Positions 14,722 to 42,465 of a stretch of 46,309 nucleotides of DNA are shown here, in pieces; the first letter of the stretch is position 1; each line of letters begins with the position of its first letter. Made by a program: the position numbers and the translations under genes. The notes under the pieces were generated by a model, which saw nothing but the letters and a program-made list of their open reading frames with translations, was not told the origin of the DNA and ran no database searches. Source of the stretch: Ignavibacteriales bacterium (lineage in GTDB: Bacteria; Bacteroidota; Ignavibacteria; UBA10030; UBA8401). The stretch spans positions 1-46,309 of the forward strand of contig JAPLFO010000160.1 in assembly GCA_026390635.1 (NCBI GenBank), in the 5' to 3' direction.

Positions 14722-14781
14722 CCCGCTTCGCCGAGCTCAGCGAGGCGAGTGCTCTCTGTGGCAAAGGCTTCTGCCACAGAG
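14722..14781. repeat. Palindromic repeat insertion between argC and argJ
   Basis: The 189-bp argC-argJ gap contains CCCGCTTCGCCGAGC-TCA-GCGAGGCGAG and then a perfect 10-bp hairpin CTCTGTGGCA / TGCCACAGAG (14754-14781, loop AAGGCTTC). The first module recurs at 41814-41843 inside a coding sequence. The spacing breaks an otherwise compact operon and could act as an mRNA stabilising or processing structure. Confidence 0.6.
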
Positions 14782-39394: not shown

Positions 39395-39596
39395 ATTCAT
39401 TAGGGTATCGGCCACCAGCACCCTCGACCTGTTTTCTTCTTCAGGTAGCCAATGCTTGAAAATGGAAGAAAAATAGCCTATCATTGGCGCACGCTCTGGG
39501 GGCAGGTCAGTATAAATAAATGAGAACTTGCAATTGGGAGATAATCGCGACAAAGCGTATAAAAAATATTTCAGAACTCTCCGAGAGAGCGTTTAT

Positions 39597-41924
39597 GTGA
39601 AACAGTACTGTATGATCATTGCTTTCATTCTGAGTGTATCGGCTCATGCCAACGCCCAGGAAGAGGCGCGGGTGAAGGCGCCGCCTGTCGATTCTACGCA
39701 ATCGGTTGAGGCTCGGTACGAACCTGGCATTGAAGTGTATCCGGCTGGGCGGTTCACCATACTGCCGGACAACGAAGGACGCCTGGCATTCGATCCCATT
39801 CTCGCCTATGCTCTCCAGCGAGCGCTGGACAGTGTCCGGACATCTCAACGGATGGCGGGTGTGTCTGCCGCCGTGCTGGTTCCGGGGCAGGGGGTCTGGC
39901 AAGGAGTCTCCGGGGTTTCATCCAAGACACCGTCGATAAGCATTCAACCCGAGATGCTCTTCGGCATCGGAAGCAATACGAAAGCATTTATCAGCACGAC
40001 GATCCTGAGCCTCGCAGATGCTGGAGCGCTGTCGCTCGACGATCCGCTCAGCAAATGGCTGCCGCCATATCCCAACATCACCGGCTCGGTTACGATCCGT
40101 CAGCTTCTGAACATGACGTCCGGGCTGTACGATTACCTGAACGATTCAAACGCCCAGGGAGATTCTGTTGCGGCGAATCCGACACGGCTCTGGACTCCTG
40201 AAGAACTCATCCGCACATTCGTCGGCCCGCCTCACAGGCTTCCGGGCGGGGCATACAGTTACTGCAATACCGACTATGTCCTTCTGGGCATGGTCATCAA
40301 CAAAGTCACCGGCAAATCAGTCTCATCTCAGATCAGACAGCGTATCCTCGCGCCGCTCTCACTCGATCATACCTACCTGGAAGTTGAGGAACACTATATT
40401 GATCCGGTTGCGCATCCATGGGACAGCGGCATTGACTTCGCATCGATTCCGGTCACTGCGCACTTCAGCACACTCTGGACGGCCGGCGGTGTAATGTCCA
40501 CAGGGGAGAACATGGCGCGATGGGTCAAGGCGCTTTATGAAGGGGCAGTGATCTCGCCGTCGGCACGCGCGCAGATGTTGACGTTCGTGCCTGCATCGTC
40601 AACGCAAACGACAGGGTTCGTATGGAGCGGCTATGGTTTGGGAGTGAGGCGGGGGGCATACTACGGTAAATCAGTTCTGGGCCATGCGGGAGCTGTGATG
40701 GGATATGTTTCCATCGCAGGATATTTTCCCACAACAGGAGTCAGCGCTGTCGTGCTCTTCAACGCATCGGAAGGAGGTGCCGGGAGCGCGCTCACCGCAT
40801 TATTCGATGTGTATCTCCATTCTGTCGAAACCCGCGTCGCCCATCCCGGACTCTGCTATGCATTGGCAGGAGCCGCTGACAGCGCACGTGTGTGCTTGGC
40901 CGATACTTCAACCGGCGTGTTGACAGCCGTCGGGACGACGCAATACGGCACAATCGTGAACGCAAGGATAGATGCCCGAACGGGGAAGGTGTGGGGACTT
41001 GCGAGTGCAAACGGCTGGGAGCTTGTCCAGATCGACGGCGAATCGGGTGAAGCATTTCCGCGCATACGGATCAAGTTCCCCGCAGGTGCGCCGACAGATT
41101 TCAAAGGATTGGATTTCACTCTTGACGGAGCAATCCTCATCGGTTCGGTAGATGGACGCATATACAAGGTCGATCCCGCAACAGGTGCTGCTGCTCTGGC
41201 TGTCACGAGCAGAATCTCGATATCGGGTCTTGCGCTCGATCCGACATCCGGCGTACTCTGGGCTTCGATACGAACAAGCGCAGTGCTTCGTGACCGCATC
41301 TTCAGAATCGACATGGCGACAGGCGACACTGTTGGTGCCGGAAACACTGGCTTCAATTCGCCGCTTGTCGATCTTGCTTTCGACAGATCGGGGAATCTTT
41401 TCGGACTCGTCGGAAACCCTTCGAGTTCGGTCCAATACAGACTGGCCCGCATCAACAAATCGACCGGCGCCGGAACGGAAATCGGTTCGCTAGGGCTCTA
41501 CGGAATGATGGGCATAGCATTCTCGCCTGCATCGATCCGGACAAGTGCGGATGGTCACGTGCCTGGCGGAGCCGTCACTGGATTCAGACTCGAACAGAAT
41601 TATCCGAACCCGTTTAATCCTTCGACAACATTTTCGTTTGATCTTGCGACTCGTTCCCTTGTTTCACTCAAAGTGTATGATGCCATTGGAAGGGAAGTAT
41701 CGCAAGTGGCTTATGAGGAATTACCAGCCGGCCACTATGCACGACAATGGAATGCGTCGGCTTTGCCAAGCGGGATGTATTTCTATCGCCTGTCCGTCGT
41801 GCCGTTGGCACGACCCGCTTCGCCGAGCGCGGAGCGAGGCGAGCGAGATCTTGTTCCGACCGAAGGTCGGAACGGACAAGCAGGCTCTTTTGCAGAAACC
41901 AAAAAGCTTCTTTTATTGAAGTGA
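39597..41924 (+). CDS. Secreted serine hydrolase with C-terminal propeller-like region and T9SS tail
   Basis: GTG 39597 is favoured because it gives a clean signal peptide (MKQYCMIIAFILSVSAHANA-Q); ATG 39612 is the alternative. 775 residues. The beta-lactamase (PF00144) core has SNTK (Ser126, Lys129), YCN in GGAYSYCNTDY and GHAGAVMGY, as in D-alanyl-D-alanine carboxypeptidase/esterase relatives. Residues ~420-645 repeat segments such as ARIDARTGKVWGLA and GRIYKVDPATGAAAL, a beta-propeller-like pattern. The T9SS tail starts at NYPNPFNPSTTF and ends KKLLLLK, but between GMYFYRL and the end it contains an extra ~27 residues encoded by palindromic DNA (41799-41880). Function: extracellular peptide or ester hydrolysis. 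Confidence 0.87.
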   Translation: MKQYCMIIAFILSVSAHANAQEEARVKAPPVDSTQSVEARYEPGIEVYPAGRFTILPDNEGRLAFDPILAYALQRALDSVRTSQRMAGVSAAVLVPGQGVWQGVSGVSSKTPSISIQPEMLFGIGSNTKAFISTTILSLADAGALSLDDPLSKWLPPYPNITGSVTIRQLLNMTSGLYDYLNDSNAQGDSVAANPTRLWTPEELIRTFVGPPHRLPGGAYSYCNTDYVLLGMVINKVTGKSVSSQIRQRILAPLSLDHTYLEVEEHYIDPVAHPWDSGIDFASIPVTAHFSTLWTAGGVMSTGENMARWVKALYEGAVISPSARAQMLTFVPASSTQTTGFVWSGYGLGVRRGAYYGKSVLGHAGAVMGYVSIAGYFPTTGVSAVVLFNASEGGAGSALTALFDVYLHSVETRVAHPGLCYALAGAADSARVCLADTSTGVLTAVGTTQYGTIVNARIDARTGKVWGLASANGWELVQIDGESGEAFPRIRIKFPAGAPTDFKGLDFTLDGAILIGSVDGRIYKVDPATGAAALAVTSRISISGLALDPTSGVLWASIRTSAVLRDRIFRIDMATGDTVGAGNTGFNSPLVDLAFDRSGNLFGLVGNPSSSVQYRLARINKSTGAGTEIGSLGLYGMMGIAFSPASIRTSADGHVPGGAVTGFRLEQNYPNPFNPSTTFSFDLATRSLVSLKVYDAIGREVSQVAYEELPAGHYARQWNASALPSGMYFYRLSVVPLARPASPSAERGERDLVPTEGRNGQAGSFAETKKLLLLK
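41799..41880. repeat. Palindromic element inserted in frame in a T9SS tail
   Basis: Three consecutive palindromes lie in coding DNA: GTGCC-GTT-GGCAC (41799-41811), CGCTTCGCC...GGCGAGCG (41817-41845) and GTTCCGACC-GAA-GGTCGGAAC (41853-41873). The middle one shares CCCGCTTCGCCGAGC...GCGAGGCGAG with the argC-argJ gap (14722). Length is compatible with the frame, so the protein end is preserved. Confidence 0.65.
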
Positions 41925-42200
41925 CGAACGGGTGGAAGAGTTGCCTGCTCCACAAGAATTAGCAACATCGCAGCAGCTGCCCAGACAGTGGACGAAGAAT
42001 CCCTGCCTCCTGCAAACCTCATTTTTGGACAACTGTTAGCAACAAAATCATCTATCGGTGATGGGGATGTTGGAATAGAGGCAAGAAGAGGACTGGTGGT
42101 CGTGACAGGAGGAATGGAATAGAACGGGAATTTTGCCTAACGATGCGCCCTGCGTCTCTTCGTGCGTCTGCACCATAGCAAAACGCTGTGAGAATTGCAA

Positions 42201-42465
42201 GCGTGGGAGGCGATGCAGGATATCGGGGCAAACAGGATCCCGCAAAAAGCCGCGGGATTTCATTCTCCGCCTTCGGCGGGTCGCACAACTTGAGATTAGA
42301 TTTGTTTGGCGCTGCCGAAAACCGCCGGGGCTGTCCCAAAAGGAAGCCTTGACGTAACGTGGGCTTCAGCCCGCGGCCAAAAAGATCTGATGAAGACCAA
42401 GTATGACGAGCTGAAGCTCGCTTTACGTTCTTTTGAGACAGCCCCATCGTTTTTGTGGCGGGGAC
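42201..42465. repeat. tRNA-linked dispersed repeat, copy A (interrupted by a MITE)
   Basis: From a degenerate GCGTGGGA...ATCGGGG through the hairpin ATCCCGC-AAAAAGCC-GCGGGAT and CTCCGCCTTCGGCGG to ACTTGAGATTAGATTTGTTTGG and, after the inserted element 42327-42445, ATCGTTTTTGTGGCGGGGAC, it parallels copy B at 45991-46157 in the same orientation. The whole 41925-42634 gap has no credible gene; it is made of repeats. Confidence 0.65.
42327..42445. mobile_element. 119-bp MITE-like element
   Basis: The termini GGGGCTGTCCCAAAAGG and CTTTTGAGACAGCCCC are near-perfect inverted repeats, of the GGCTGTCTCAAAA kind found on several DDE insertion sequences. Inside are two hairpins with complementary loops, CGTGGGC-TTCA-GCCCGCG and CGAGC-TGAA-GCTCG, so the two halves of the whole element are inverted copies. 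It encodes no protein and would need a transposase in trans. No target duplication is obvious. Confidence 0.65.

Follow-up and report, generated by a model that had tools for sequence, protein, structure and literature searches.

The insert and its empty site

How does palindromic DNA come to be read in frame within the secretion signal of a protein? The question is raised by a serine hydrolase gene (39528-41924, plus strand) in a window of 46,309 nucleotides, which lies on contig C186 of an Ignavibacteriales genome (G000; 3.98 Mb in 202 contigs). The open reading frame encodes 798 amino acids from a TTG start at 39528, and a Beta-lactamase domain (PF00144) and a C-terminal type IX secretion system (T9SS) sorting domain were identified in it by profile search. 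The sorting domain (Por_Secre_tail; 41583-41921, plus strand) comprises 113 residues that are predicted to form an Ig-like sandwich, with the insert lying between the last two strands. It scores above the cut-offs of the sorting-domain profiles (PF18962, 28.3 bits against 27; TIGR04183, 31.8 bits against 23), and the tail reads GMYFYRL-SVVPLARPASPSAERGERDLVPTEGRNG-QAGSFAETKKLLLLK. The original prediction held that palindromic repeat DNA is read in frame inside this domain, which was confirmed by a census of tails and by orthologues with an empty site.

A TIGR04183 search of the genome gave 150 scored T9SS tails, about 97 of which were inspected for tail length. The distance from GxYFYR to the stop was exactly 22 amino acids in 77 of these, while the longer tails include a group of 26-30 amino acids, three of 40, and the window tail with 50. 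Alignment of the tail with orthologues, as had been suggested, showed a plain 22-residue tail without the insert in G021 (81% identical), G002 (76%) and G080 (71%). The insert is therefore 28 codons or 84 nt long (41793-41876, plus strand), with YFYRL ending at 41792 and QAGSF starting at 41877; the earlier estimate of about 27 residues was close, and the span first given, 41799-41880, deviates by about 5 nt at both ends.

Three consecutive hairpins code for the insert, as had been predicted. On the plus strand these are hairpin 1 (41796-41814; GTCGTGCC-GTT-GGCACGAC, 8 of 8 bp), a 30-nt palindrome (41815-41844; CCGCTTCGCCGAGCGCGGAGCGAGGCGAGC) and hairpin 2 (41853-41873; GTTCCGACC-GAA-GGTCGGAAC, 9 of 9 bp). 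The insert was found to be more palindromic than shuffles of its codon order (P about 0.003) and dinucleotide shuffles (z = -3.6). Palindromic loops as a general trait of long T9SS tails were considered and rejected, as codon-shuffle tests were negative for most other tails of 27-39 amino acids, among which the element described below stands out. Downstream of the hydrolase, an imperfect inverted repeat with 22-nt arms (82%) was observed at 42352-42428, bounded by GGCTGTCCCAAAAGG...CTTTTGAGACAGCC ends and resembling another small interspersed repeat.

Two nested elements

A single insertion had been proposed. Paralogous tails in the same genome (C31:166590, C123:17380, C123:22002 and C123:20704, the last incomplete) read SAVPxARRDLVPTxGRNG and lack the middle ten codons, which encode PASPSAERGE in the window. 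When the genome was searched with the window insert, both halves of the query adjoined exactly at C31, and CCGCTTCGCCGAGCGCGGAGCGAGGCGAGC is therefore a clean 30-nt insertion. Since these paralogues hold the outer 54 nt alone, the whole insert as one element of the type of the 30-nt palindrome was ruled out. We consider it very probable that two palindromic-repeat insertions of different age and family occurred successively at one codon junction, that of a 54-nt double-hairpin element first and that of the 30-nt palindrome, a member of a family termed P1, later. The claim of a non-coding palindrome inside coding sequence accordingly applies to the middle ten codons only; the outer 18 (SVVPLAR-RDLVPTEGRNG) belong to a different, older element. 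In the first step the 54-nt element would have inserted between the Leu of YFYRL and the Gln of QAG, a junction apparently entered in no fewer than 23 further tails, within this genus and others related to it, without target duplication. In the second step the REP-like, genome-specific P1 member would have inserted after hairpin 1, ahead of the central GAGATCT.

The P1 family was represented in the genome by 33 pattern matches, against 0 for the reversed pattern. One non-coding copy of the consensus form lies in the argC-argJ gap of the window (14723-14751, plus strand). The hairpin that the original prediction described as common to the hydrolase and this gap is common to them as a family with identical arms, but not letter for letter, as the centres differ (GCGGA in the hydrolase copy, TCA in the consensus). 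The hydrolase copy is 30 nt long against about 28-29 nt, and the frame is kept because its centre is 2 nt longer than that of the consensus copies. Most other copies occur in a CTCTG...TTCTCTGTGG context. P1, including the copy at 14723-14751, mostly splits another repeat, CTCTGTG..CTCTGTGGC, of which unsplit copies are also present in the genome.

The proposed genome search for further copies of the palindrome thus returned about 33 in G000, and the hydrolase copy was the only one found within a gene. P1 inside other genes was looked for by reading the longest open reading frames over its copies and was rejected, as in the recognisable proteins the copy precedes the real start. The family is nearly confined to this genome, a search of the order's 97 other genomes having given one exact match, and its insertion in the hydrolase gene is known from one assembled genome.

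The 54-nt unit in T9SS tails

The older element has a fixed framework, TCCG-hairpin 1-CGAGAYCTCG-hairpin 2-CGGR, which may also be rendered as TCCGT-hairpin-ACGAGAYCTCGT-hairpin-ACGGA. From matches read in context, it was found at one codon junction, YRL/Q, and in one frame in 24 tails, which belong to seven genomes (G000, G026, G052, G053, G070, G071 and G072) representing three families, and short or degenerate versions were observed in G054, G078, G094 and G097. A covariance model built on four copies had matches in 32 of the 98 genomes of the order, and a refined model in 37 of the 391 genomes of the class (E<=1e-5).

Both hairpins of the unit covary. The alignment comprised 24 rows, including 20 copies from tails, and in it 14 of the 26 pairs were changed on both sides, with 38 cells against 11.1 in shuffles (0 of 500), and pairing amounted to 91.9% as compared with 32-44% after sliding. 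The stem TGTCGC/GCGACA in G026, for example, is replaced by TCGTGCC/GGCACGA elsewhere. We also observed 98-100% identity among five units of G071, against 37-79% over the 90 nt before them and 23-82% over the 39 nt after them. As the identity is limited to the 54 nt and includes synonymous sites, the unit was copied without the surrounding sequence; judged by sequence, this is not a pattern that inheritance of tails or selection on the peptide alone would yield.

These observations bear on whether the insert is instead a peptide loop with a useful role in the sorting domain, passed on by descent or recombination together with whole tails, with the palindromes arising as a by-product of the codons. 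Equal residues do occur at the equal place in several genera, and two tails of G026 have common flanks (83% upstream). However, unit identity far exceeds flank identity with synonymous sites included, compensatory changes swap the residues (SVVPSARR against SVSPSATR) while the pairing is kept, the decayed copies L298 and L303 retain length but not residues, and other genes contain copies in antisense or in another frame, which together leave the peptide loop improbable. The original prediction had named the same residues in distant genera as evidence against an insertion. Taken literally, this applies to the outer 18 codons, since SVVPSARRDLVPTEGRNGQ occurs in other families, but the insertion reading survives because the DNA shows the element itself copied into different tails.

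Short-tract gene conversion among T9SS tails, following one original insertion, is somewhat less improbable than the peptide loop but still unlikely. It would account for the constant site and for the strong model matches in G000, all of which lie in T9SS tails. Under this explanation, however, the tracts must stop exactly at the 54-nt boundary, where flanks are 37-59% identical, and the element has also entered another gene and pieces of tRNA.

Repeated insertion of the element, the reading that we prefer, would leave in place those copies whose length is divisible by three and whose frame contains no stop, since these could survive selection. Of four tested versions of the unit, three contain no stop in any of the six frames and one lacks stops in five; six open frames were seen in 3.3% of random genomic 54-mers. 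The two G052 copies mentioned above, L298 and L303, have kept length and frame and lost the hairpins, as expected of decay after insertion.

Further segments were observed at this position. In L251, L284, L294 and L296 a repeat-like segment (CTTCGACAGGCTCAG / CCTTCGTCAAGCTCAGGG) follows directly after the unit and in frame, as if inserts accumulate in this tail loop. Other long loops occupy the same tail junction in three tails of G004, from a related genus (L072, L074 and L076), two of which have in common KDGRQTATTLSSGQAG with a GTCGTC..GACGAC palindrome.

Copies outside the tails

An antisense copy of the unit is read in frame in a PGM/PMM-type sugar mutase of G073, where it adds 24 residues. 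The site is empty in G069 (ESSRNS/QSLKVV), and an imperfect 9-nt repeat (CGCAATTCG/CGAAATTCG) is present on both sides of the insert. Another antisense copy was found in an open reading frame of 610 amino acids in G026 (L255). In the gene of a PIF1-like helicase (L256) the element may lie before the true start, so this copy is an uncertain coding insertion.

Incomplete tRNA copies also contain the double-hairpin framework, located in the D-loop and arranged as GCTCAG-element-TTGGTTAGAGC (L354, L353, L345, L357 and L358 near 1501; also L259, L267, L314, L264 and L351). An intact tRNA of matching sequence lies close by in L345, L353, L354, L357 and L314 and represents the empty site, without target duplication. 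Matches to the unit model occur in intergenic DNA as well. The intergenic and tRNA matches have the common framework with different stems, and we infer from this framework that they descend from one element. In two intergenic neighbours of L287 (1272-1341 and 1715-1778) the outer flanks and hairpin 2 are equal and hairpin 1 is wholly different, as if the stems were exchangeable cassettes.

The positions of the copies also bear on a role of the hairpins in the transcript, for example as a stabiliser of the mRNA 3' end or as an attenuator. The hairpins are strong and do lie close to the 3' end, about 15 codons ahead of the stop, and an RNA role has been suggested for REPs (PMC3733652). Against such a role, copies are found mid-gene and on either strand, the hairpins are gone from some old tail copies (L298 and L303), and an Rfam search of 41700-42000 gave no match; we regard a transcript-level element as having little likelihood.

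Fold of the sorting domain and choice of site

AlphaFold2, run on the window domain together with 42 tails of G000, predicts a confident sandwich with core pLDDT above 90. In the window domain the last strands are predicted at residues 64-74 and 103-111, and the insert forms a low-confidence loop at 75-102. A PDB fold search with the tail model gave weak Ig-like matches only, including PorU and FlgD. In solved T9SS domains the connecting loops are mostly variable in length, while the C-terminus and the loop between beta3 and beta4 are required for export (PMC11285876). The predicted position of the loop, taken with this published variability, makes it plausible that the export signal tolerates the insert. 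The motifs known to be required for export do not include the loop between strands 6 and 7, which may be why the insertion was tolerated.

Every unit in a tail is followed by a Gln codon, as compared with Gln in 17 and Leu-Gln in 12 of the 77 plain tails. As Gln always follows the tail units, their exact boundaries are uncertain, with CAR either inside or outside the unit. Several of the Leu-Gln empty sites in plain tails have the sequence CTGCAG, which is perfectly palindromic, as TTGCAA would also be.

Relation to known repeats and possible movement

The comparison with Rickettsia palindromic elements (RPEs) made in the original prediction proved apt. RPEs are palindromic repeats that occur both between genes and, in frame, within unrelated protein-coding genes (PMC10969869; PMC3733652), and the unit likewise occurs in frame in unrelated genes (T9SS tails and the PGM/PMM-type mutase) whose relatives have empty sites. 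The unit differs in consisting of two hairpins whose stems vary freely within a fixed framework, in strongly favouring a single codon junction within the T9SS sorting domain and in its host, an Ignavibacteria-like member of the Bacteroidota as against an intracellular alphaproteobacterium. By analogy of behaviour, taken from descriptions of RPEs, the unit appears to work like RPEs and intragenic REPs.

CGTC-tagged REPs are short stem-loops, often inverted dimers, that occur in Chlorobi and Bacteroidetes and in part within open reading frames (Di Nocera et al. 2013; PMC3733652). The unit hairpins resemble them in often starting with CGTC and ending with GACG. CGTC-tagged REPs, however, have a terminal unpaired tag, a stem whose first two positions are A/T and an unpaired CCA-like tail (PMC3733652), whereas in the unit CGTC is paired, the stems vary freely and there is no CCA tail, which places it outside this class. 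MITEs of DNA transposons are defined by terminal inverted repeats together with a target-site duplication; the ends of the unit are inverted (TTGTCCG/CGGACAA), no duplication was seen in tails or tRNA pieces, and the imperfect 9-nt repeat lies around the mutase insert. A search of the open-access literature on palindromic elements in coding genes and on type IX secretion returned no comparable element, and the unit matches no described family that we found.

Both elements are similar to REPs moved by RAYT or Y1 proteins in being small multi-copy palindromes without visible target duplication in a genome that encodes Y1_Tnp proteins. The lack of target duplication, the inverted ends and the Y1_Tnp genes fit movement by a hairpin-recognising activity, for example a Y1/RAYT-type transposase, which is a possible but doubtful mechanism. 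A RAYT with P1 flanks was searched for and not found: none of the five Y1_Tnp places examined was flanked on both sides by P1 or the unit, and neither element contains GTAG, so that both differ from GTAG-tagged REPs and REPtrons. In one region of the genome (C92:16225-16398 and 16635) a weak Y1_Tnp gene lies between CGTTCCCAAGC..CTTGGGAACG palindromes, with a P1 copy a few hundred nucleotides away.

We tentatively propose, at a little under even probability, that the unit represents an undescribed family of mobile double-hairpin palindromes with exchangeable stems in a fixed framework, which would favour the T9SS junction and the D-loop of tRNA copies and for which the tail would serve as a safe harbour.

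In-frame palindromic repeats have been known mainly from Rickettsia and from a few REP-rich genomes, where their positions are spread across genes of no common kind. In the present case the same position in a secretion signal was colonised repeatedly, by one element and in several genera, and many natural pairs of sites with and without the insert are the result. Such pairs allow tests of how selfish palindromes settle in coding DNA, of whether the element selects this site or is simply tolerated there, and of how far a T9SS export signal can change. Bacterial repeats can repeatedly rewrite the export tag of a protein with the reading frame left intact.
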